Assembly: GCA_030949705.1 (NCBI GenBank)
Contig: JAUZSF010000026.1
Location: forward strand, 169,244-233,243
Direction of reading: 5' to 3'
Source: Robiginitomaculum sp.
Lineage (GTDB): Bacteria > Pseudomonadota > Alphaproteobacteria > Caulobacterales > Maricaulaceae
DNA: 64,000 bases
The stretch's first letter is position 1, and each line of letters begins with the position of its first letter. The notes under the pieces are model-generated. The model did not search any database and had not been told where the DNA came from. It was given only the letters and a program-made list of their open reading frames with translations. The position numbers and the translations under genes were made by a program. Below, in pieces: positions 39,506-64,000 of the stretch.

Positions 39506-40110
39506 GGCAAAATAATTTCCCGGCGGCGCAATTCTTTTAAGAGCGGCAATAAAGACAGGCCGAGTATGGAAAAATGATCTCCCTCTATACGCTCAAACAA
39601 GGTAATGCCCAGACCTTCGATTTCATAACAGCCTACGCTGGCCAAAATGCCGGTTCCGGCGCGTCGCAAATAAGCATCTATGGCGGCATCGCTTAAGCTT
39701 CGCATATGCATATGAGCGCGGCTTTGGTGTTGCCAGATGGTTTTGCCCTCTTGCACCAAGACCAGCGCACCCACCAGATCATGGCATTGACCGGACAGGG
39801 TTTGCAGGCGGTCTTTTGCCTCTTCCAGAGTATTGACCTTGTCATATTGCCGGTTTTGAAATTCCAGTATTTGGTCAGCACCCAGGATCAACCGATCATC
39901 ATGGGCCGAGACCTGCAAGGCTTTTTCCTTTGCCAACAAGGTGCTCATGTCCTTGGCATCAAGACCATGATTATCCGCCTTGAGGCGATTTTCATCTACA
40001 GGGGAAGGACAAACATCAAAAACGATACCGGCATTTTTCAAAATGGTTTGGCGAATAGCGCTTGCCGAAGCCAAAACCAATGCGGGTTTTTGCTTTTCTT
40101 CAATGCTCAT
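39502..40110 (-). CDS. maf: Maf-family nucleotide pyrophosphatase
   Basis: PALVLASASAIRQTILKNAGI, LILGADQILEF. Confidence 0.92.
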   Translation of the reverse strand: MSIEEKQKPALVLASASAIRQTILKNAGIVFDVCPSPVDENRLKADNHGLDAKDMSTLLAKEKALQVSAHDDRLILGADQILEFQNRQYDKVNTLEEAKDRLQTLSGQCHDLVGALVLVQEGKTIWQHQSRAHMHMRSLSDAAIDAYLRRAGTGILASVGCYEIEGLGITLFERIEGDHFSILGLSLLPLLKELRRREIILP

Positions 40111-40957
40111 TACCCAGGCTTTCGTTTTTTTGCGCCGCCAGCAAAGACATGATTTTGGCTGAAGTTTCTTCGATGGATCGCCGGGTGACATCAATTACCG
40201 GCCAGTGATGCCGGGCAAACAGCCGTTTGGCGTGTATGATCTCGTCGCGCACCGCGTCTTCATTGATATAATCGCTGGGGCGGTGCTCGTTCAGACTAAG
40301 CAAACGATTTCGCCGAATCTGTACCAATCGCCGGGGACTGATGGTCAGACCAACAATCAAGGGCTTGTTGGTGGTTTCGGTCAATGATTTTTGCAGCTCT
40401 GCCTTGCCCACAATGGGCACATTGGCCGCCTTAATCCCGCGATTGGCCAGATACACACAGGTCGGGGTTTTTGAAGTGCGACTAACCCCGAGCAGAATCA
40501 CATCGGCCTGGCTGATCCGCTCGGGAGACAAGCCATCATCATGAGCCATGGCAAAGTTCAATGCATTGATTCTATGATGATATTCTTCATCCTGTATATG
40601 TTGTGCGCCGGTTTCATGACTGACCGGCGTACCCAGATACTGGCTAAGGGTATGCAGGGTTGGCCCCAGGACATCGATACAGGGAAAATCGTGCTTTTCA
40701 CAAAAACTGACCAGCCGTTTGCGCTGCGCCACATTGGCCATGGTATACATCACCACCCCGGGGGCGGCGCTGATTTCCTCCAGCGCCATTTCCAACTGTT
40801 TTTCAGAACGGGTCAACACGTGGATATGCTCGATCGGGATCAACATACGAAATTGTGCGCTGGCGGCTCGCATAATACCCGCCAGCGTTTCACCCGTTGC
40901 GTCTGAGACCAGATGCACATGAACATAATATCCCGGTTGTGTGCCTCGTTCACCCAA
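40100..40957 (-). CDS. pyruvate,phosphate dikinase/PEP synthase regulatory kinase/phosphorylase (DUF299, RP001-type)
   Basis: VHLVSDATGETL, ADVILLGVSRTSKTPTCVYLANRGIKAANVPIV. Confidence 0.94.
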   Translation of the reverse strand: MGERGTQPGYYVHVHLVSDATGETLAGIMRAASAQFRMLIPIEHIHVLTRSEKQLEMALEEISAAPGVVMYTMANVAQRKRLVSFCEKHDFPCIDVLGPTLHTLSQYLGTPVSHETGAQHIQDEEYHHRINALNFAMAHDDGLSPERISQADVILLGVSRTSKTPTCVYLANRGIKAANVPIVGKAELQKSLTETTNKPLIVGLTISPRRLVQIRRNRLLSLNEHRPSDYINEDAVRDEIIHAKRLFARHHWPVIDVTRRSIEETSAKIMSLLAAQKNESLGNEH

Positions 40958-41349
40958 GCCGCCCTCCTCTGGAATTCGTTAATAAAGTGTTAATAAGTTT
41001 GGCTATCTTCGCCGACTTGGTAGTGCTTGATGGTATTACCGTATTTTGACTGTATTTTAAGGCAAGGTTTTTCACACTTTTCCCTGTCTTTCCCATTTTT
41101 GTTGAGAATGTGGATAAATCTGAATTTTATGATTTTTTCTTGGCAGATTTTACATATATCTTTTTGTATTTTAATGAATATTTCCTTTCATCCAATATTT
41201 TTTATGCGTGGTTTTTCCGGTATTTGATGTTCATAAATCTCTTTTTCCACCTGTAAATTTATGTTCTGACTGTGAATAACAGGTTTTGTCACGGCTGTTC
41301 ACAGCCTAAAAACAATCACAATAAAAATATAAAGATAATTGGAAAAAGT
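40958..41349. other. oriC: probable chromosomal replication origin (oriC) between DUF299 gene and hemE
   Basis: AT-rich gap with DnaA boxes TTTTTCACA (41068-41076), TGTGGATAA = rc TTATCCACA (41109-41117), TTTTCCACC (41243-41251, one mismatch), TGTGAATAA (41271-41279), plus TTAA-N7-TTAA (40979-40993). Synteny matches the Caulobacter and Rickettsia origin locus, and flanking genes diverge. Confidence 0.85.
40979..40993. promoter_or_regulatory. CtrA-type binding site TTAA-TAAAGTG-TTAA
   Basis: Exact TTAA-N7-TTAA match inside the putative origin. Confidence 0.55.
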
Positions 41350-42393
41350 ATGGCCATGGGTATTGCGGTAAAACCAATTTTACAAACGCTGGCGGGGCAA
41401 ACCAGCACGGTGCCTCCGGTTTGGATTATGCGTCAGGCCGGGCGATATCTTCCCGAGTACAGGGCCTTGCGAAAAGGCGCTGCCTCTTTTGTGGAATTTT
41501 GTTTAAACCCGCAAATGGCCAGCGAAGCTACCTTGCAACCCATATCCCGATTTAATCTGGATGCGGCCATTGTTTTTGCCGACATCCTTCTCATTCCCTA
41601 TGCCATGGACCGCGATGTGCATTTTGTTGCCGGTGAGGGTCCAAAAATGCGCCCCTTAGATCGCCAAGAGCCGTTATCGCAACTGGAAAAAGCCTGGTCT
41701 TTGGGAAAAGTCGATGCCATCGGCGAAACCCTGCAAAGGGTGCGCGCTAAATTGCCGGAAAACGTAACCCTGATCGGCTTTGCCGGGGCCCCCTGGACCG
41801 TGGCCACCTATATGGTGGAAGGCGGCGGCTCAAAAGACAAATGGCAATCGCGGGTATGGGCCTGGCAGGAACCAGCGCAATTTGATGCCCTGTTGGATAT
41901 CCTGACCGAAGCCAGCATCGAATATCTGCACATGCAGGCCAAGGCCGGGGCAGAGGTGTTAAAACTTTTTGAATCCTGGGCCGAGGGCCTGCCGGAGCCG
42001 TTTTTTGATCGCTTTATCATTCGCCCGGCCAGAAATATCGTAACGGGTCTGCGAAAACGCGGCGTGGATCTGCCGATCATTGGCTTTCCCCGGGGCTGTG
42101 GCATATTGGCTGCTCGCTATGCGAAAAAGACCGGGATAACCGCCATTGCGCTGGATCAGGCCCAAGACGGCCAATGGTTTAATGATCATCTGGACCCAAC
42201 CATGGTGGTACAGGGAAACCTGGATCCGGCGGTATTACGGGTCGGCGGGACTGCATTGCAAAGCGAAGTGGCACGGATAAAACAAAGTTTTGCCGGGCGG
42301 CCCCATATTTTTAACCTGGGTCATGGAATTACCCCGGATACGCCGCCCGAAAACGTAAAATTATTGATTGATCTGGTTAAAAACACCTCATGA
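41350..42393 (+). CDS. hemE: uroporphyrinogen decarboxylase
   Basis: PPVWIMRQAGRYLPEYRALR, GFAGAPWTVATYMVEGGGS, NLGHGITPDTPPENV. Confidence 0.97.
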   Translation: MAMGIAVKPILQTLAGQTSTVPPVWIMRQAGRYLPEYRALRKGAASFVEFCLNPQMASEATLQPISRFNLDAAIVFADILLIPYAMDRDVHFVAGEGPKMRPLDRQEPLSQLEKAWSLGKVDAIGETLQRVRAKLPENVTLIGFAGAPWTVATYMVEGGGSKDKWQSRVWAWQEPAQFDALLDILTEASIEYLHMQAKAGAEVLKLFESWAEGLPEPFFDRFIIRPARNIVTGLRKRGVDLPIIGFPRGCGILAARYAKKTGITAIALDQAQDGQWFNDHLDPTMVVQGNLDPAVLRVGGTALQSEVARIKQSFAGRPHIFNLGHGITPDTPPENVKLLIDLVKNTS

Positions 42394-48475: not shown

Positions 48476-48491
48476 TGTTTCACGTGAAACA
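48476..48491. other. parS: parS centromere site
   Basis: Exact palindrome TGTTTCACGTGAAACA in the mnmE-mnmG intergenic region. Confidence 0.95.
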
Positions 48492-50458: not shown

Positions 50459-51103
50459 ATGTCGGATACCCAAATTCCAAACTCAAAAGGCCGCGATGAT
50501 TTTGCCCGCCAGATGGATGTTTCACGTGAAACACTGGCGCGGTTTTCTTGCTGGCATGAGCTTTTGTGTAAATGGTCCAAAAAAATCAACCTGGTGGCGC
50601 CGGGCACCTTGCCCGCCTTTTGGACCCGCCATGCCTTGGACAGCGCCCAATTGGCCGCACTTGTACCCAAAGAGGTCAAAAGGTTGATCGACCTTGGTTC
50701 CGGCGCGGGGTTTCCCGGCCTGGCCATCGCGCTGATGCGCATGGAAAACGACCCGGTGCATGTAACTCTGGTAGAATCAAATGCCAAAAAGGCAGCCTTT
50801 TTGCGGGTTTGTATCGAGGAAACCGGCGCACCGGCCGAAGTGATCTGTGCCCGCTCTGAATCATTGCCCCCACAGGTCTATGATGTCATAACGGCCAGAG
50901 CGTTGGCGCCATTACCACGATTGCTGGCCCTGAGTGCGCCCTTTGTCGGGCCACAAACCGTGCAATTGTTTCCCAAGGGCGCCGAGGTAAAAACAGAAAT
51001 AAGCGAAGCGTGTAAAGACTGGACGCTGGCCTATGAAACCATACCAAGCATGACGGAAAAGGCCGCCAGTATTTTGAAAATCAGGAAAGCCCATCGTGTC
51101 TAA
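50459..51103 (+). CDS. rsmG: 16S rRNA (guanine527-N7)-methyltransferase RsmG
   Basis: VSRETLARF, KKINLVAPGTLPAFWTRHALDSAQL, IDLGSGAGFPGLAIAL. Confidence 0.96.
   Translation: MSDTQIPNSKGRDDFARQMDVSRETLARFSCWHELLCKWSKKINLVAPGTLPAFWTRHALDSAQLAALVPKEVKRLIDLGSGAGFPGLAIALMRMENDPVHVTLVESNAKKAAFLRVCIEETGAPAEVICARSESLPPQVYDVITARALAPLPRLLALSAPFVGPQTVQLFPKGAEVKTEISEACKDWTLAYETIPSMTEKAASILKIRKAHRV
50518..50533. other. parS: second parS site, embedded in rsmG coding sequence
   Basis: Exact TGTTTCACGTGAAACA encoding the DVSRET segment of RsmG. Confidence 0.93.
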
Positions 51104-51899
51104 TTCGCCAACAGGTCTTCGCATTATTGCCGTTGCCAACCAAAAGGGCGGGGTGGGTAAAACCACCACCACGATCAACCTGGCTACGGCCCTGTGTGCC
51201 ATTGGCAAAAAAACCCTGATTTTGGATCTGGACCCCCAGGGCAATGCCTCTACCGGCCTGGGGGTGGGCCATGCAGAGCGCCACACCACCACCTATGACG
51301 TGGTGGTCGGCAAGGTGCCGCTATTAAAATCCATTATCCATACCAAGGTGCCGGGACTTCATATTGCGCCTGCCGAGGCCGATCTGGCCGGGGCAGAGCT
51401 GGAGCTGGCCAATGTTTCGCGGCGTTCGCACCGGCTTAAAGACGCGCTGGAAGATTTGAAGAAAAACAGCAATTATGAATATGTGCTGATTGATTGCCCG
51501 CCCTCGCTAAACGTGCTGACGGTCAATGCCCTGACGGCCGCCGATGCCTTGCTGGTGCCTTTGCAATGCGAGTTTTTTGCCCTGGAAGGACTCAGCCAGC
51601 TTTTGCGCACCGTGGATCTGGTCAAGGTTAATCTTAACCCCCGCCTGGAAATCCAGGGGCTGGTGCTGACCATGTATGATCCGCGCAATAATTTATCCAA
51701 ACAGGTGTCCGAAGATGTGCGCAAGCATTTTGGGGACAAGGTTTATGAAACCGTGATTCCGCGCAATGTCCGGGTTTCCGAAGCGCCGTCCTATGGCAAG
51801 CCAGCCCTGATTTATGATCATATGTGTGCCGGCAGTCAGGCCTATATGAAACTGGCCAGCGAAGTAATCCGCCGCGAAAATAAAGTGAGAGCATTATGA
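51096..51899 (+). CDS. parA: chromosome partitioning ATPase ParA
   Basis: IIAVANQKGGVGKTTTTINLATAL, VLIDCPPSLNVLTVNAL. Confidence 0.97.
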   Translation: MSNSPTGLRIIAVANQKGGVGKTTTTINLATALCAIGKKTLILDLDPQGNASTGLGVGHAERHTTTYDVVVGKVPLLKSIIHTKVPGLHIAPAEADLAGAELELANVSRRSHRLKDALEDLKKNSNYEYVLIDCPPSLNVLTVNALTAADALLVPLQCEFFALEGLSQLLRTVDLVKVNLNPRLEIQGLVLTMYDPRNNLSKQVSEDVRKHFGDKVYETVIPRNVRVSEAPSYGKPALIYDHMCAGSQAYMKLASEVIRRENKVRAL

Positions 51900-52777
51900 G
51901 TGAGCATCCCAAGGGTCAACGATTAGGGCGCGGCCTGTCCGCTCTGCTGGGGGAAACGGAGCCGGCAGAAAATGTGGCGCCGAACATGAATCAGGACAAT
52001 CGCGTTCCCATTGAATCCCTAAGCCGCAATCCAGACCAGCCCCGGCGGCGCTTTGATGAAGAAGCCATGGAAGAGCTGGCGCGCTCGATTGCAGAAAAGG
52101 GGGTGTTGCAACCCATTATCGTTCGCCCCATTCCTGGCGGTGGCGGCTATCAGATCGTTGCCGGCGAGCGTCGTTGGCGCGCCGCTCAGCGGGCAGGTCT
52201 GCACGAAGTGCCCGTGGTGGCCCGGGATCTGTCTGATCGCGAAGTTATGGAAATTGCACTGGTGGAAAACATCCAGCGGACCGATTTGGACCCGATCGAA
52301 GAGGCCCGCGGGTTTTCGGTGCTGTCTGAACAGTTCAACCATACCCAGGAAGACATTGCCCGGGTGGTTGGTAAAAGCCGGGCTGCCATTGCCAACGCCA
52401 TTCGCCTGCTTGCTTTGCCTTCATCTGTACAGGAGATGATTTGCGATGGACGGCTAAGTGCCGGTCATGGACGCGCGTTGATTAACACCCCAAACCCCGA
52501 AGAAATGGCGGCCCGGGTCGCCGCTCAGGGCCTTAATGTCCGCCAGACCGAAGAATTGGCCCGCCAGGCCAGTGCCGCCCCGGAAACCAAAGGCCGGTCG
52601 AGCAAGCCTGCCCATGGTAAAGACCCCGATACACTGGCACTGGAAGAAGACCTGACCCGGCACCTGGGCTTGGCGGTGTCGATAAGTTCGCGCGCCAATG
52701 GCTCTGGCCAGTTACAGATTAATTTCAGCACGCTGGAACAGCTGGATGATTTGTGCCGACGTCTGACCCAGGACTGA
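51896..52777 (+). CDS. parB: ParB-family partition protein
   Basis: RLGRGLSALLGE, NPDQPRRRFDEEAMEELARSIAEKGVLQPIIVR, GERRWRAAQRAGL. Confidence 0.97.
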   Translation: MSEHPKGQRLGRGLSALLGETEPAENVAPNMNQDNRVPIESLSRNPDQPRRRFDEEAMEELARSIAEKGVLQPIIVRPIPGGGGYQIVAGERRWRAAQRAGLHEVPVVARDLSDREVMEIALVENIQRTDLDPIEEARGFSVLSEQFNHTQEDIARVVGKSRAAIANAIRLLALPSSVQEMICDGRLSAGHGRALINTPNPEEMAARVAAQGLNVRQTEELARQASAAPETKGRSSKPAHGKDPDTLALEEDLTRHLGLAVSISSRANGSGQLQINFSTLEQLDDLCRRLTQD

Positions 52778-53832: not shown

Positions 53833-54329
53833 CGTATTTCCGGCTGGCTGGCAAAGAACACTGCCAGATCATTCATGACCTTTTCTGCCAGAACGGTTGC
53901 CGCGGTTTCTTCTGCATATTGTTCCGCGGCTATTGCACCATAGGGCTGGTCAGGAATATCAAAGGCTGTTTCGCTAATGGCATTGCCCTTATAGGCAATT
54001 TTGCCGTCACGATCGCGAACCGTATAGCGGGCGCGCAAGGTCAGCCGGGCCCGGGTGGAAACATCATCAACCCGCACGCCGACATTGGCCTGGGTTTTTC
54101 GTAAATTCGTTTCCAATACATAGACCCCGGACTGGCCTGCCTGAATGCCGCCGCGATCCTGCAATGCCTGGGCAAACAAAAAGCCGGCCCGGCCTTCAAT
54201 GGGGGCCAGGCTCAGGTTTTCAAAACTGCGCCGTACGGCGGTATTTTCCCCATATAAGGGTTGAAATCCGGCGCAGGCAGAAAGCAAAACCAGCAGGCAG
54301 GCAGACAAGCTGTATTGAAAAAATCTCAT
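53829..54329 (-). CDS. lptE: LPS assembly lipoprotein LptE
   Basis: LLSACAGFQPLYG lipobox and RARYTVRDRDGKIAYKGNAISETAFD; between holA and leuS. Confidence 0.88.
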   Translation of the reverse strand: MRFFQYSLSACLLVLLSACAGFQPLYGENTAVRRSFENLSLAPIEGRAGFLFAQALQDRGGIQAGQSGVYVLETNLRKTQANVGVRVDDVSTRARLTLRARYTVRDRDGKIAYKGNAISETAFDIPDQPYGAIAAEQYAEETAATVLAEKVMNDLAVFFASQPEIR

Positions 54330-54330
54330 A

Positions 54331-56877
54331 TCAATTGGCCACTATGTTGACGATCCGGTCGGGCACAACAATGACTTTGCGCACGGTAAGGCCCTTAAGT
54401 GCCCGAATTGCCCCCTCATTGGCAAGAGCGCGTTTTTCCGCTTCGTCCTTGGGAAGACCGCGCGGCGCCGAATACTCGCCCCGGCGTTTACCGTTGACCT
54501 GCACCGGAATGATGATTTCTTCATCTTCTGACAGGGCCTTGTCATAGACCGGCCAGGGGGCTTCGGCGACCAGGCCGTCGCCGCCCAGTTTTTCCCAACA
54601 GCTTTCTGCCAGATGTGGTGCAAAAGGTGCCAACAATTGGGCAAAGGTGCGCATGAGCGAATTTACATTGGTACTTTCCGGGGCTTTGCGAATGGCATTC
54701 AGAAAATCATAAAGCCGTGCAATCGCCCGGTTAAAGCGAAAGCCTTCAATATCTTCGCCCACGGCGCGAATGGTTTTGTGGCGCAGGCGTTCCATGGTTT
54801 CATCGGGGGCGTCTGTGCCGGTTTTGGCCGCGGCGGTGCAGGTGCTGGTCCACACCCTTTGGACAAAGCGGTTGGCCCCTTCAACGCCGGCATTGGTCCA
54901 TTCCACATCCCGTTCAGGGGGCGAATCCGAAAGGACAAACCAGCGGGCAACATCAGCCCCATATTTGGCAATAATATCATTGGGATCAACGGTGTTGAGC
55001 CGGGATTTGGACATTTTCTCAATGGCACCGGCGGTGACAGGTTTGCCGGTGCTGCGTTCAATCCAGTTCTCGCCCTGGCGCTCCACCGCCGTGGGGGGCA
55101 GCCATTCACCCTGATCATTTTTATAGGTCTGGTGGGTCACCATGCCTTGGGTGAACAGGCCGGCGAAGGGTTCATTGCCCTCTATATCCAACAAGCCGCA
55201 ATCTTTCATGGCGCGGGTGAAAAACCGCGCATAGAGCAAATGCAAAACCGCGTGTTCAACGCCGCCAATATACTGGTCCACGGGCAGATAGTATTTTGAA
55301 GATTCCAGATCAACCGGCTCTTCCGCATGGGGCGAGCAAAAGCGTGCAAAATACCAGGACGAGTCCACAAAGGTATCCAATGTGTCGGTTTCCCGAACGG
55401 CCTTGCCGCCACAGGTCGGGCATTGGGTTTGCTTCCATTCCTCAGCCCGTTCCAGCGGGTTGCCGGGCTGATCAAAGCTGACCTCCTCGGGCAGGGTCAC
55501 CGGCAGGCTTTCCTCGGCCACGGGCACGACACCACATTTTTCGCAATGTACCGCCGGGATCGGACACCCCCAATAACGCTGGCGGGAAACCCCCCAATCG
55601 CGCAGGCGATAATTAATGGTGCGGGTGCCCTGACCAGCGGCCTCGATTGCATCACAGGCCTTGGTTATGGCCTCTTCAACCGGCAGGCCGTTCAGAAAAC
55701 CAGAATTCATCAAGGTGCCGCTGCCGGTATAGGCGGTATCGCCAATTTCGGCTTCTTCAGGTGTTTTGCCTTCCGGGCAGACCACGGCCAATACGGGCAG
55801 GCTATATTTGCGGGCAAAGTCCAGGTCGCGTTGATCGCCAGCCGGACAGGCAAAAATCGCCCCGGTACCATAATTCATCAAGACGAAATTGGCCGTCCAC
55901 ACGGGCAGGGTCTTGCCCTCAATAAAGGGGTGCTTGACCCGAAGGCCAGTATCAATGCCTTCTTTTTCAGCGCGCTCGACGGCTTCCTCGGTGGTGCCCA
56001 GGCGGGCACATTTCTCGGCAAAGGCTTTTAGGTCGGGTCTGGAGTTGGCCAGACGCTGAATTACCGGATGGTCCGGGGCCAGGGCTAGAAAGCTGGCCCC
56101 ATAGAGTGTGTCCGGGCGCGTGGTATAGACCTCAATGCCATCGATGCCTTCACAGGGCGTGCTTTCATCCAGGGCAAAGCTGAACTGCAGCCCTTCGGAT
56201 CGGCCAATCCAGTTGGCCTGCATCATCTTGACCTTGTTTGGCCAGCGATCCAGCTCGTCCAGGCCGCGCAACAGGTCTTCGGCATAGTCGGTAATTTTGA
56301 AAAACCATTGAGTCAGCTCGCGGGTTTCCACCAGCGCGCCCGAGCGCCAGCCACGACCATCGATAACCTGTTCATTGGCCAAAACCGTTTGATCCACCGG
56401 ATCCCAATTGACCTTCGAGGACTTGCGATACACCAGGCCGGCTTTCCAGAAAGCCAGAAAGATTTTTTGCTGCTGGCCATAATATTCCGGATCACAAGTG
56501 GCAAATTCCCGGCTCCAGTCCAGGGCAAAGCCAAGGCGCTGCATTTGTTCGCGCATGGCATCAATATTTTCATAGGTCCAGGATTTGGGATGGATTTTCC
56601 GCGCCATGGCGGCATTTTCCGCGGGCATGCCAAAAGCATCCCAGCCCATGGGGTGTAAGACTGAAAAGCCGTTCGCCAGACGATAGCGGGCGATGACATC
56701 ACCCATGGAGTAATTGCGCACATGGCCCATATGAATCCGCCCCGAGGGGTAGGGAAACATTTCCAGCACATAGGCCTTTTTTTGGTGGCGATTGTCTGAG
56801 GCAGCCTTAAAGGTTTCGGCGTCGTCCCAGGCTTTTTGCCATTTTTTTTCGCTGGTCGAATGATCGTAAGATATCAT
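54331..56877 (-). CDS. leuS: leucine--tRNA ligase
   Basis: [47 protein letters not shown]. Confidence 0.98.
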
Positions 56878-56907
56878 AATAAACCATAACTTTCAAACAC
56901 TTACGGT

Positions 56908-57372
56908 TTATCCCAAGGTGGAAATTTTCAATTCCCTGGCACGGGTAAGAATGGCATTTTCAATCTGAATTTCCGTATCCGGATCCACATCAGCATCCAC
57001 CCAATGACCATCATCGTTCAGTTTTTGCTTGAACACAGAAACCTTGATCGCATCGGCCCGCAAGCGGGTATCCAGAATATAGACCGTCGCCTTGAAGCGC
57101 TCTTTGGGGGCGGTGGCCTCGCTGTGCCAGCCGGTAATGATAACGCCCCCATAAGGGTCCGCAGAGTTAAGCGGCATAAACTCGATCGTTTCCAGCGCCG
57201 CCCGCCATAAAAAGCTGTTTACACCAATACCGGATACAGATTTGGACTTGCTAAACAATCCGCCAGAGCGCTTGGCGCCGGTATCTGACCGGCCTTTCCC
57301 GCCAAAAGTAGAGCATGAGGCAATGGCAGTGGTCGCCAAAATGATAATGGCGATGCGAACATTGGCACGCAT
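56908..57372 (-). CDS. DUF3576 domain lipoprotein
   Basis: Lipobox IASCSTFGG; GIGVNSFLWRAALETIEFMPLNSADPYGGVIITGWH; upstream of leuS. Confidence 0.88.
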   Translation of the reverse strand: MRANVRIAIIILATTAIASCSTFGGKGRSDTGAKRSGGLFSKSKSVSGIGVNSFLWRAALETIEFMPLNSADPYGGVIITGWHSEATAPKERFKATVYILDTRLRADAIKVSVFKQKLNDDGHWVDADVDPDTEIQIENAILTRARELKISTLG

Positions 57373-57820
57373 AGATTTTCTCCGCATGAGACGGCAGGTT
57401 CGCCGTGAACATAATTCGACCGCGTGTATACCATGCTGATCCGTCTAGGCCAGTCTTGCTTTACAGGCCCGGGGCGTATTTTTCGGGCATTTTTACAAAA
57501 TCGCTTGTTGCTCTTGGGCCACAATATCAAAGAAGCACAAGCTGAGGCCCTGTTTTTTCTTGACCCTGATTGTCCCATCGTTCATGGAAAATGCTGGCGT
57601 CCGGGGGATGGGGCTGCTCGCGGCCGGTCACAGTCAGTTCGTAATCAGAGGATTATGGCGCTGTGACCGGATCGCAGCTCACCTCTAGGCATCTATGTGA
57701 GCAGGCACTAAATTAAGTAAGGTTCTTTCGGGCATTAATGTAATCTTGAGGGAATCCAGTTAGAATGCACCAATATTGATTATGGCGGTGCCCAAAGGAC
57801 GAGCAGGGATCTGACAAAGC

Positions 57821-58255
57821 ATGAAGCGCATGCAGCCCATATTGGCCGTTTTGGCCTTTTCGGTTTTCGCCGGACCCGTGATGTCCAGCGAAGTTACCGG
57901 TGTGCGTGCTGCGGATTCGTCATTGCCCTGGAACCGCGCCTTTACCGTTCGGGATGAAAGCCGCGATGATAATCGCTCGGTTGTACCAATCCGTACGCCG
58001 GGGGTTGCCATTCCCGCCAGCAGCAAATGGGGCGTAACGGTAAACTTTGATATCAAAGACAGCGCTTATGAAAACATGGACCGCATGAGCGCCGGTGCCT
58101 ATTTTGATCTTAGCCCCCGTATTCGTCTTGGTGGCAGCCTCAGCTTTGGGGCGCCGGGGGATCTTCGCATCTCCACACCTAATGATCGGGTACTGCCCTC
58201 GCTTTCCAGCGAAAAGGATTCGGCGATCCGGATCGAATCTTCCATCAAATTCTGA
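57821..58255 (+). CDS. NtrZ-like periplasmic protein
   Basis: Signal peptide, LPWNRAFTVRDESR, KWGVTVNFDIKD, MSAGAYFDLSPRIRLGGSLSFG; resembles alphaproteobacterial NtrZ. Confidence 0.6.
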   Translation: MKRMQPILAVLAFSVFAGPVMSSEVTGVRAADSSLPWNRAFTVRDESRDDNRSVVPIRTPGVAIPASSKWGVTVNFDIKDSAYENMDRMSAGAYFDLSPRIRLGGSLSFGAPGDLRISTPNDRVLPSLSSEKDSAIRIESSIKF

Positions 58256-58276
58256 TTTAGTTTTTGTCTGGAGGTA

Positions 58277-59243
58277 TTATGGGCTGTTTGCGGCCTGTAA
58301 GGCCGGCGCCTCGTCCACAGGGTCGTGATTGTCAAACGGGTTGGCAGGTGTTCCGCTTGGTGAAGGCTTGTCCTCTTTAACGTCCTGAGAAAGGGGCTGT
58401 GCGATCTGGCTTTTACAGATTGCCGAAAGCCGGGCCCCCATGCGCCACCGGTCCCGGTAACGGTTTATCAGCCCGGTAAATACCAGCAAAACCAAGACCG
58501 GTGCATACCAGCATAAAACGGCTCCATGAGCGCTGCCAAATCCGAACAGGCGGGTCTTTAAAATAAACAGTAACAAAGCAAACAGTGGCACGGTTATAAA
58601 ACGCAAAGACCGGGACCATAAAATCAGGACCAGAATAAAGGCTGCCACATATAAAATGGCCCCATGGTCTTGCAGCGAGCCAAACGAGGCCGATGTTTGA
58701 ACCGTCCAGGCGGGCATTGGCAGCCAGCCAAATGCCGCATTCAGGGAGGGGGGAAATCATCTCCCATAGGGGACGCAGTGGCGAAAACAGGCGCGCCTCT
58801 GTATCGGATATAAAGCTGGCGATCTGACGGGCGAAATAGCCGCGCTCGGTTATAATGGCGGCAATGCTGAGAAATACAAAGCTGACCCACCAATATAAAG
58901 AGCGGCAAATTCCGGCCTGTCTCAGCAAGATCTGTAGAGGCTCTACGCGCTGGCGCTCTCGCCGGGTGCGGTTGATCACGGCAGCCAGGGTTTCAGGCTT
59001 GTTTTTGCCCCGGCTGAGCAAAACCTGCGTAATAACATCGCCAGGATGACAATCAATATTCCATTGTGCCGCATCGGCGACACAAACAGAGCCATCCTTA
59101 AACCGCAATTCCAGTGTCTTGGCTTCGTCGTTTTGGCCCTGTGCATCCACAGTGGGGGCCGCCACAACCCCATCACGCAAAGCGTAGCGTACTTTACGGC
59201 GACCAAACCTTTGTTCGCTTATATGTTGTGAAAGCCCGCTCAT
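58277..59243 (-). CDS. conserved hypothetical multi-TM protein; frameshifted in G6 run 58748-58753
   Basis: Removing one base joins ...SPLRPLWEMISPSLNAAFGWLPMPAWTVQTSASFGSLQDHGAILYVAAF... across the two ORFs. Confidence 0.6.
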
Positions 59244-59403
59244 GATATCTCCAAAGAAAAGATATACAGGTTTGAACACGTTTATAAAACGAAGGTCTCC
59301 TAAGAGGGGAATCTTTAAAGAGATTAGACCCGGCCTAAACCCTGTTTATATTTGTAAAAAAGATCATGGCCATCAGGCCGCTCCTCCTTCGAGGTGTGTT
59401 AAC

Positions 59404-59425
59404 GATATAAAGATATCTTTATATC
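59404..59425. promoter_or_regulatory. 22-bp perfect palindromic operator candidate upstream of ahcY
   Basis: GATATAAAGATATCTTTATATC equals its own reverse complement. Confidence 0.7.
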
Positions 59426-59559
59426 ATCTTGTCAGGACCTGTTGCCGTTGATATAGGCAGCACAGAACCGGGCAATTCCATGTCCCTGCCCGCGTGCCAG
59501 GATGACGGCTTTCCTGACCGCAATCGCTTTTATGCCGAGAGAATTAGGACGCAAAAACA

Positions 59560-60855
59560 ATGACTGCGCAAAATGATTATAAAGTCAAAGATATCAGTCT
59601 GGCCGAATGGGGCCGCAAAGAAATCGACATTGCTGAAGTGGAAATGCCCGGCCTCATGTCGACCCGTGAGGAATTTGCCGAGGAACAGCCTTTAAAGGGC
59701 GCGCGCATCACCGGCTGTTTGCACATGACCATTCAAACGGCGGTATTGATAGAAACCCTGACGGCACTGGGTGCCGAAGTGCGCTGGTCATCATGTAATA
59801 TTTTCTCGACCCAGGATCAGGCTGCTGCGGCGATTGCCGCCTCCGGGGTGCCGGTATTTGCCTGGAAGGGCGAGACCGAAGAAGAATATGAATGGTGCAT
59901 TGAGCAAACAATTAAAGGCCCGGATGGTTGGACGCCCAATATTCTGCTGGATGATGGCGGTGACCTGACCCTGCTCATGCATGAAAAATACCCCGAATTA
60001 CTGGACGATGTTGTCGGCGTATCCGAGGAGACCACCACCGGCGTGCACCGTCTTTATGAAATGGCCAAGGCCGGCACATTGAAAATTCCCGCCATTAACG
60101 TCAATGACAGCGTTACCAAATCCAAATTTGATAACAAATACGGGTGCCGGGAAAGTCTGGTGGACGCGATTCGCCGTGGCACTGACGTGATGATGGCTGG
60201 CAAGGTTGCCGTGGTTTGTGGTTATGGCGATGTGGGCAAGGGCTCGGCCCAAAGTCTGGCCGGGGCGGGCGCCCGGGTGATCGTCACCGAAATTGACCCC
60301 ATTTGCGCCTTGCAGGCTGCTATGGATGGTTTTGAGGTGCGTCGTCTGGATGATGTGGTTTCCAATGTTGATATCATCGTCACCACCACGGGCAACAAGG
60401 ATATCGTCACTGCCGACCATATGCGGGCACTCAAAGACATGGCAATTGTCTGTAATATTGGCCATTTCGATAATGAAATTGCCGTTGCCGACATGAAAAA
60501 CTATAAATGGACCAATATTAAGCCTCAGGTGGATATGATTGATCTGCCATCAGGCAATCGCATGATCTTGTTGTCCGAAGGGCGTCTGGTCAATCTGGGT
60601 AATGCCACGGGCCACCCCAGCTTTGTCATGTCGGCCAGTTTTACCAACCAGACTCTGGCCCAGATCGAGCTTTGGAAAAATGGCAGCAAATATGAAAACA
60701 AGGTCTATACCCTGCCCAAGCATCTGGACGAGAAGGTTGCGCGCTTGCATTTGGCCAAACTGAATGCAGACCTGACGGAACTAAGACCTGATCAGGCCGA
60801 CTATATTGGCGTTCCGATCAATGGGCCGTTCAAATCGGATGCTTATCGGTATTAA
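59560..60855 (+). CDS. ahcY: adenosylhomocysteinase
   Basis: [45 protein letters not shown]-terminal SDAYRY. Confidence 0.98.
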
Positions 60856-60880
60856 AGCTGGTTAATAGATAAGCACTGCG

Positions 60881-60912
60881 AAAAGGGGTCTCAGTTATCA
60901 GAGGCCCCTTTT
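60881..60912. terminator. bidirectional terminator between convergent ahcY and amidohydrolase
   Basis: AAAAGGGGTCTC-AGTTATCA-GAGGCCCCTTTT (one G:T pair), followed by T-run. Confidence 0.8.
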
Positions 60913-62672
60913 TTTGCGTCATACCATTTACCCTCAAAAACCACGCCATCCACATGAATGTCCCTTAAGCGCATGGGCTCTACGGCATAGGGGTTTTCAT
61001 CCAACACCGTAAAGTCGGCGGTTTTGCCTCGGGCCAGCGAGCCAATCCGGTCCTCCAGACCAATCATGCGCGCGGCCTCAATGGTAATGGCACGCATGGC
61101 GGCATCCACTGAAAGACGCTCTTCGGGGGCCATCAGTTGGCCGTCCATATTGACACGATTGACCCCAATCCAGGCCAGAAATAGCGGGTCCGCCGGCGCC
61201 ATGGTCATGTCGGAATGCAGCGCCAGTGGCACGCCGGCGCGCTCCAGCGAGCCAAGGCGAACCATGTGTTCGGCCTGATCTTTCTCCAGCAATTTGTCCG
61301 CATATTTGCCGCCAAGCACATAAAGATAATTGGGCTGGGCCGAGACCATCAGGCCAAGATCGGCAATCCGGGCAATCTGATCCTGGCGGGAAATGCCCAA
61401 ATGTTCAAGAATAATGCGTTGGTCCGCATGAACGCCATCGCGCGGTAGTCTGGCCAGGGTATCCAACACCACGTCCAGCCCGCCGTCGCCATTGACGTGT
61501 ATATGCAGGTTAAACCCTGCATCCCAAAAGGTTTGCGCCTGTTGGCGCAACAGGTCCGGTTTGGTAATCCATTTGCCGGGCCGCCCATCCAGATAAGCGG
61601 GGCTATGCAGCTTCATTGCCGGCACAAAAAAGGCACCATCGGCCAGCAATTTAACACGGTTGTTTATAAAGACGCGGTTACCTTCAAAACCTGCTTCGTC
61701 TTTTTTGATCAATGCCGGGGCCGCGGCCAAGGAGCCCGCGCGTGCGGTCACCTCGCTCGCATAAGGCATCAGCATCACTCGCAGGGGAATGTCTGATCTG
61801 GCATAGGTTTTTTGGATCAGGCCGGCCTCCATGGGAAAAGAGCCAAAAATACCGGTGGCCATGTCCGATACCGTGGTCACGCCGTTTTGCAGCAACAGGG
61901 CGTTCATTTCGCCAAGGCCCCGCCCCAGCCATTTAGGGGCCATTACCGCCGGAGCCAGGCGGCGAAAGGCCGCCGCCAGCGCGGTTTCGGAAAAATACCC
62001 CCGTTCAAAATCGGCGTGCGCCGGGTCAATCCCCGGATGGTCGATCAGGGCTTCAAAATCAGCTTTTTGCCCAACGCCCAGATATTCCATACCCTTTGTG
62101 TTGGTCACAATTTCATGAAAAGAGCGCTGCCAGATAAAGACCGGTTTGGTATTGTCCAGTGCATCCAGATCGGCGCGGCTCATGGGGCCGTGCCATAATG
62201 CATGCCAACCCCAGGTGATAAAGGGTTGATCCGGCGGTGCGGCCGCCAGCTCTTTTTTCAGCTTTTCCAGATAGGCTTGGCGGGTTTTCACCCCGGCTTC
62301 AAAACCGCGAGGCAGGTTCCAGTCCTCAGGCGTGATAAAATGGGTGGGCAGCAACACCGCCGCGATCATCGGGTGTAAATGCGGATCAATAAACCCCGGC
62401 ATTAAAACCTTGTCGGCAAAACGCTTTTCTATCTGCGTGTGGCGATTATCTAGCATTTTAGGGGGAGACCCATCTCCTAACGCCACAATTTTACCATCTG
62501 CTACGGCCACCCATTGTGCCTTGGGTTGGTCCGGCTCCATGGTAATAATGGTTTTGGCCACATAAACGGTGATCGGTGCCCCGGCGGGCTTATCAGGTGT
62601 GGATGGGCCGCACGAGGCGACAAATACGATAATGGCAAGGGTCATTAAAACACGAAAAAAAACGGAGGTCAT
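60891..62672 (-). CDS. amidohydrolase family lipoprotein (YtcJ-like)
   Basis: Lipobox FVASCGPS, VLMPGFIDPHLHPMIA, ALHSDMTMAPADPLFLAW, GKTADFTVLDENPY. Confidence 0.92.
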   Translation of the reverse strand: MTSVFFRVLMTLAIIVFVASCGPSTPDKPAGAPITVYVAKTIITMEPDQPKAQWVAVADGKIVALGDGSPPKMLDNRHTQIEKRFADKVLMPGFIDPHLHPMIAAVLLPTHFITPEDWNLPRGFEAGVKTRQAYLEKLKKELAAAPPDQPFITWGWHALWHGPMSRADLDALDNTKPVFIWQRSFHEIVTNTKGMEYLGVGQKADFEALIDHPGIDPAHADFERGYFSETALAAAFRRLAPAVMAPKWLGRGLGEMNALLLQNGVTTVSDMATGIFGSFPMEAGLIQKTYARSDIPLRVMLMPYASEVTARAGSLAAAPALIKKDEAGFEGNRVFINNRVKLLADGAFFVPAMKLHSPAYLDGRPGKWITKPDLLRQQAQTFWDAGFNLHIHVNGDGGLDVVLDTLARLPRDGVHADQRIILEHLGISRQDQIARIADLGLMVSAQPNYLYVLGGKYADKLLEKDQAEHMVRLGSLERAGVPLALHSDMTMAPADPLFLAWIGVNRVNMDGQLMAPEERLSVDAAMRAITIEAARMIGLEDRIGSLARGKTADFTVLDENPYAVEPMRLRDIHVDGVVFEGKWYDAKKGASDN

Positions 62673-62719
62673 GATATTTTCTTTGCATTTAGTTTTTCCG
62701 AAACTGGCTCCGGTCGCTA

Positions 62720-63896
62720 GTCATCTGGAACTGTAATTGATATCATTATGATGCTATTGATTTGGAGGTTTTGGTGGGTCGTGTTGCTGGTGTTGTTGTA
62801 TTGAGTGTTGAAGAACGTTCTTTTCTGGAAAGTCAGGTCAGGCGGCACAAGGCACCGCGTTCACTTTCGGATCGCTGCCGGATGATCCTGCTGTGCGCCG
62901 ATGGGTTGCCCAGCAAGGAAGTGGCCAGCACCATGGGCGTGCATGAACATACGGTTGGCAAATGGCGGCGACGATTTGTGAGGGACCGTGTGCAGGGTTT
63001 GTCGGACGAGTATCGCCCGGGCCGACCGCGCACGGTGTCTGATGCACAAGTGGCGAAGGTGATTGAGCGCACGCTGCACAGCACACCCAAAGATGCCACC
63101 CACTGGTCGATCCGCTCGATGGCCAAAGAGGTCGGTCTTTCGCATACCACCATCCGGCGCATCTGGAATGCCTTTGGCCTGCAACCACATCGGCGTGAGA
63201 CCTTCAAGCTCTCGACCGACCCTTTGTTTGTTGACAAGGTGCGGGACATTGTTGGTCTCTATATGTCACCGCCCAACCGGGCGATTGTGCTTTGTGTAGA
63301 CGAAAAGTCCCAAATTCAGGCGCTGGATCGCGAACAGCCGGTTCTGCCAATGATGCCTGGGGTGGCAGAGCGACAAACTCACACCTATATCCGCCATGGC
63401 ACGACTTCCCTGTTTGCCGCCCTTGATATTGCCACCGGTGCGGTGATCGGCAAGTGCTACAAACGCCACCGCTCACAAGAATTTCTGGGCTTTCTCAAAC
63501 AGATTGATGAGTGTCTGCCTAAAGGACCGGACGTGCATCTGGTGATGGATAACTACGCGACCCACAAGACCAAAGAAGTCAAGGCGTGGTTGGTCCGGCG
63601 GCCTCACTGGCATGTTCACTTCACGCCCACCTCCGCCTCCTGGATCAATCAGGTCGAACGCTGGTTTGCCGAGTTGAGCCGAAAGAAACTTAAACGCGGT
63701 GTTCACCGATCAACCCGCGAACTGGAAGCTGACATTCTCGCCTTCATTGAGACCCACAATGAAAACCCAAAACCATACAGATGGGTCAAATCCGCCGATG
63801 AAATCCTTGCCTCCGTCAAACGCTTTCTGCCACAAAACACAGCAAACCTTATGCACCGAACTTTAGATTATGTGCCGAACTTTAGATTCGGGTGAC
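62720..63896 (+). mobile_element. IS630-family insertion sequence (~1177 bp)
   Basis: Flanking TA dinucleotides (62718-62719, 63897-63898); partial terminal inverted repeats GTCATCTGGAACT / GTCACCCGAATCT; encodes DDE transposase. Confidence 0.85.
62762..63895 (+). CDS. IS630-family transposase
   Basis: [91 protein letters not shown]. Confidence 0.95.
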
Positions 63897-64000
63897 TAGC
63901 GGCTTGCATGCCTTAAATGCCGGGCAAAATCCATTGAGTCATGTAAAATAGAGAGAATAAGAACATCATCTGTATCGTATTCAATGATATAAGCCACATA
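63896..64000 (-). CDS. C-terminus of a RelE/ParE-like toxin, truncated by window edge
   Basis: Reverse strand reads YVAYIIEYDTDDVLILSILHDSMDFARHLRHASR*, resembling the RelE/ParE C-terminal pattern; stop TAG overlaps the IS630 target TA. Confidence 0.6.
   Translation of the reverse strand, partial: YVAYIIEYDTDDVLILSILHDSMDFARHLRHASR

Follow-up and report, generated by a model that had tools for sequence, protein, structure and literature searches.

A predicted chromosomal replication origin with a conserved CtrA-type box between DUF299 and hemE in Robiginitomaculum

The chromosomal origin of Caulobacter (Cori) and the predicted origin of Rickettsia both lie between hemE and the COG1806/DUF299 gene, and both carry DnaA and CtrA sites (PMC1914354). 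In Caulobacter, G-boxes and CtrA sites are adjacent or overlapping, and on that ground steric exclusion of DnaA has been proposed as the mechanism (PMC4468827). The same review describes marine Caulobacter origins as using CtrA too, probably independently (PMC4468827). In Hyphomonas neptunium, a ChIP-seq peak revealed that CtrA binds beside the origin (PMC7200025).

We analyzed a 64,000-nucleotide stretch of DNA (the window), corresponding to positions 169244–233243 of the 233243-bp contig C26 in a 2.83 Mb, 29-contig MAG of Robiginitomaculum, a genus placed by NCBI in the Robiginitomaculaceae, Maricaulales. The first-pass annotation of this DNA had stated that the Caulobacter and Rickettsia origins adjoin hemE and RP001/DUF299, in agreement with PMC1914354, and had pointed to an AT-rich noncoding gap of ~390 bp between the same two genes here. 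Both the gap and its setting were borne out, and profile matches make the two gene identities firm:

40100..40957, minus strand: DUF299/COG1806/PF03618 gene for a PpsR-like kinase-pyrophosphorylase (PF03618, E=1e-85; NF003742), TTG start, left boundary of the predicted origin
40958..41349, no strand: the gap, putative oriC, 392 bp, GC 0.32 against ~0.55 around it
41144..41188, no strand: candidate unwinding element 1, an AT-rich core with 40-mers of 15% GC, poorly conserved
41307..41346, no strand: candidate unwinding element 2, an AT-rich 40-mer of 15% GC before hemE
41350..42393, plus strand: hemE (TIGR01464, 382 bits, cut-off 303), right boundary of the predicted origin

The DUF299 start codon position is occupied by ATG, GTG or TTG among close relatives, and hemE starts at the ATG at 41350, an upstream GTG at 41272 not being its start. 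A same-genus genome, G009, was observed to have two DUF299 matches (C2:39392-40204 and C20:2790-3602, 63% and 58% identical), possibly through duplication or a mixed bin.

On the combined evidence of its sequence, the gap at 40958–41349 is almost certainly the chromosome replication start of this Robiginitomaculum-type alphaproteobacterium. Its DNA is 68% AT, above the genome average, and it is the lowest-GC 392-bp window on C26 and also contains that contig's least stable stretches of 100 and 200 bp. Each of the 15 genus members has an AT-rich 40-mer (GC 0.15–0.30) in the 56 bp directly ahead of hemE. Transcription diverges from the gap, as had been claimed, with 8 of 9 genes on the minus strand to the left (34.2–41.0 kb) and all genes on the plus strand to the right (41.3–52.8 kb) except one for a dienelactone hydrolase.

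Divergent transcription and AT-richness are also typical of promoters, and the dnaA gene is absent from this locus. The gap could on these grounds be a mere AT-rich divergent promoter region, with the origin elsewhere (e.g., at dnaA). We consider this very unlikely, since the skew reaches its minimum and the DnaA boxes cluster at this gap, a parS pair lies near it, and a same-genus contig switches skew at the homologous gap. Skew was computed on single contigs or sampled stretches, the assembly being a 29-contig MAG. The cumulative GC-skew minimum of the 233-kb contig C26 is at contig position 210212, or 40969 in the window, which is inside the gap, so that the check on cumulative skew suggested with the first-pass annotation came out in favor of the origin. 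The skew on C26 is weak. Genes of each orientation were analyzed separately for third-codon-position skew on their own coding strand, which gave -0.073 for plus and +0.014 for minus genes on the left, and +0.061 for plus and -0.137 for minus genes on the right. Predicted leading-strand genes are thus positive and lagging-strand genes negative on either side of the gap. Since the third-position skew reverses for plus and minus genes alike, the switch is not simply a product of gene orientation, which counts against the promoter reading. At window 54000–64000 the GC skew was close to zero though the replichore should continue, possibly through local gene-strand effects or a recent rearrangement.

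Comparison with the hemE–DUF299 gaps of relatives had also been proposed, and the homologous gap of the same-genus genome G011 switches skew sign as well, strongly so. That gap is at 495 kb of a 703-kb contig (G011:C6), and the fine skew minimum is at ~496 kb, within ~1 kb. When 20-kb stretches of this contig were sampled, 13 of 13 at 0–490 kb were negative, the stretch with the gap was close to zero, and 6 of 6 from 510 kb onward were positive. In a one-contig genome of the family (G039:C1), sampled skew lacked a clean sign change at the hemE–DUF299 gap, and a clear shift was seen near 1.0 Mb.

The gene dnaA itself is on another contig (G000:C19:81128-82489, L002), at least ~100 kb from the gap given the contig ends. 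Neither a skew switch nor a DnaA-box cluster was found at the dnaA locus, and skew on that contig is uniformly negative. The outcome that had been named as speaking against the gap, a skew minimum elsewhere such as next to dnaA, did not arise. An origin beside dnaA was rejected on these two grounds. In single-contig genomes of the family (G039, G041, G031, and G018), dnaA and the DUF299 gap are ~110–300 kb apart. Since dnaA is that far away, a sequence record opening at dnaA does not have the origin at its start.

To the right of hemE, the window has the elements of a chromosome segregation system:

48476..48491, no strand: parS TGTTTCACGTGAAACA, exact match, between mnmE and mnmG, 7.1 kb right of the gap
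50518..50533, no strand: parS TGTTTCACGTGAAACA, exact match, inside the 5' end of rsmG, 9.2 kb right of the gap
51096..52777, plus strand: parA and parB (ParA-family matches below named cut-offs; ParB/RepB/Spo0J TIGR00180, 194 bits)

The expected number of parS sites is 0.2 even when 3 mismatches are allowed. An exact parS pair was found within ~20 kb of the DUF299 position in 6 of 6 genomes searched.

The gap has three DnaA boxes and one weaker site, which agrees with the exact box, two TTWTNCACA matches and near-match reported in the first-pass annotation:

41068..41076, plus strand: DnaA box TTTTTCACA, TTWTNCACA class, with a local conservation bump of ~0.6
41109..41117, minus strand: DnaA box TTATCCACA, exact consensus
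41271..41279, minus strand: DnaA box TTATTCACA, hemE-proximal, with a box-like site nearby in most genus members
41295..41303, plus strand: weak DnaA-like near-match CTGTTCACA, inside a conserved block (0.69–0.83)

Three matches to TTWTNCACA compare with 0.07 expected from dinucleotide shuffles, of which 1 in 1000 reached three. The gap is the only 392-bp window on the 233-kb contig with a three-box cluster. The exact box TTATCCACA has 25 copies in the genome, and its sole other copy on C26 is ~160 kb off. Across the 15 same-genus gaps there were 35 DnaA boxes against 1.35 expected. The arrangement had been described as sparse; this did not survive comparison with the gaps of the order, in which the DnaA-box number here is not low. 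The gap of G011 has no TTWTNCACA match, and those of G003 and G017 have one each, which indicates that recognition relies on more than this consensus. The weak consensus in these relatives might also be taken to mean that the gap was once the origin and persists through synteny, with initiation having moved to a nearby site. Yet it is in G011 that skew switches most sharply, and precisely at its own gap, which makes this reading extremely improbable.

Other signals were searched for in the gap. An IHF site is present in Caulobacter and in many predicted origins; the IHF consensus WATCARN4TTR had no match in the gap, where a degenerate site may still exist. Sigma-70-type promoters and terminators were not in excess over shuffles, and repeats or iterons amounted to weak pairs only. 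Rfam searches of the gap gave no match above chance, and a structured RNA was rejected on that basis. The gap has no GANTC (CcrM) site, which against ~0.3 expected is not significant. In the whole window (1–64000), this CcrM methylation site is about threefold depleted, with 54 copies against 177 expected.

The left edge of the gap has a further site. It is one of three features that the first-pass annotation had missed, the others being the two exact parS sites and the skew minimum:

40979..40993, minus strand: CtrA-type box TTAA-N7-TTAA, TTAATAAAGTGTTAA (TTAACACTTTATTAA on the minus strand), exact, 21 bp from codon 1 of DUF299

A single CtrA-type box in the gap of the window was seen in 54 of 1000 shuffles, so it is not improbable in DNA this AT-rich, and the weight of the box therefore rests on its conservation. 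All 15 same-genus gaps have the box (15 boxes against 1.25 expected), and its sequence hardly varies among them, most carrying TTAAYAAAGTGTTAA. With a conservation of 0.97 it exceeds every other block of the gap as well as the flanking coding sequence. The 18 exact CtrA-type boxes of the genome are outnumbered by the reversed control pattern, which occurs 46 times. The genome encodes GcrA and a CtrA orthologue (80% identical over 224 aa to a Caulobacter CtrA sequence used as query). Exact boxes elsewhere in the gap were found in other genera of the family and in other families of the order, in 14 of 19 sampled order gaps against 0.24 expected. Within the order, then, the hemE–DUF299 gap commonly has a CtrA box, and where the box sits depends on the lineage. 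It was thus through the CtrA box, and not through sparse DnaA boxes, that the gap could help to define a lineage-specific origin as had been suggested. The origin gap of a larger-genome member of the order (G104, L166) combines three exact CtrA boxes with a single G-box-like TGATCCACA, an arrangement that recalls Caulobacter Cori.

The position of the box also bears on what CtrA might do there. One possible, though doubtful, reading is that the box serves to control the DUF299/ppsR promoter without a direct role in initiation, and that DnaA alone runs the origin. The box is 19–26 bp from DUF299 codon 1 in 13 of 15 genus members, has the same DUF299-proximal offset in genus g4 and most of g7, and overlaps no DnaA box, all of which would suit such a site. 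The spacing is not fixed, however, being 43–55 bp in G012 and G015, and among other Caulobacterales the box is in the same gap but distant from DUF299. Furthermore, if the box were an activating site at -35, the transcript would likely begin at or inside the ORF, past the ribosome-binding site AGAGGAGG. The binding of CtrA beside the origin in Hyphomonas neptunium (PMC7200025) also argues against a role limited to the DUF299 promoter.

The nearest DnaA box is 74 bp from the CtrA-type box, and no TGATCCACA G-box is present for a CtrA site to adjoin or overlap. Because of this distance and the lack of G-boxes, steric exclusion here would need cooperative spreading, or would have to give way to a mechanism acting on transcription at the DUF299 edge. 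We tentatively hypothesize that CtrA controls the origin from one near-invariant DUF299-edge site, not by excluding DnaA but by acting on transcription or on the structure of the DNA nearby, which might tie initiation to the expression of DUF299/PpsR, and that the site may have been placed independently of those of Caulobacter. We found no published report of a near-invariant CtrA site at one edge of an origin, away from the DnaA sites.

Overall, we are highly confident that the locus as a whole is best explained as an oriC, with DnaA-box opening, bidirectional forks, coupling to CtrA and segregation by ParAB as its predicted workings. The position of the gap, its boxes, the skew switch, the parS sites and the conservation are observed, and from them we infer initiation and the binding of DnaA and CtrA. 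DnaA would nucleate on the three boxes at 41068, 41109, and 41271 and open AT-rich DNA at either 41307–41346 or 41144–41188, the choice between which we infer rather than observe, and replication forks would then depart both ways from the gap. CtrA~P on the conserved box at 40979–40993 may restrain or modulate initiation, and could in this way make either origin firing or transcription at the DUF299 edge follow the cell cycle. The parS sites and ParAB, 7–12 kb away, would segregate the new origins.

These data give good support to an origin in a genus of uncultured marine Caulobacter relatives. They also map where CtrA boxes occur over 62 gaps of the order, with a fixed place at the DUF299 edge in genera g1, g4 and most of g7 and other places in other genera, by which the evolution of CtrA control of origins becomes testable.

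The locus resembles Caulobacter crescentus Cori in its flanking genes, its AT-richness, its DnaA and CtrA sites and its parS within ~8–10 kb (PMC1914354, PMC4468827). Cori has five CtrA sites, weak G-boxes and an IHF site, whereas the gap has one exact CtrA box 74 bp clear of the DnaA boxes, consensus-like DnaA boxes with TGATCCACA absent, and no IHF consensus that we could find. Rickettsia origins usually have several predicted CtrA sites of a looser consensus. The hemE–RP001 origin of Rickettsia prowazekii has the same gene pair, is comparable in length at 384 bp and is likewise AT-rich (PMC1914354); its lineage, unlike this one, is obligately intracellular. Hyphomonas neptunium is a related dimorphic marine bacterium and likewise has CtrA beside its origin (PMC7200025). 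The origin is located as established knowledge expects for the class, in which a hemE–DUF299 oriC is already known, and it is the placement of the CtrA site that is lineage-specific.
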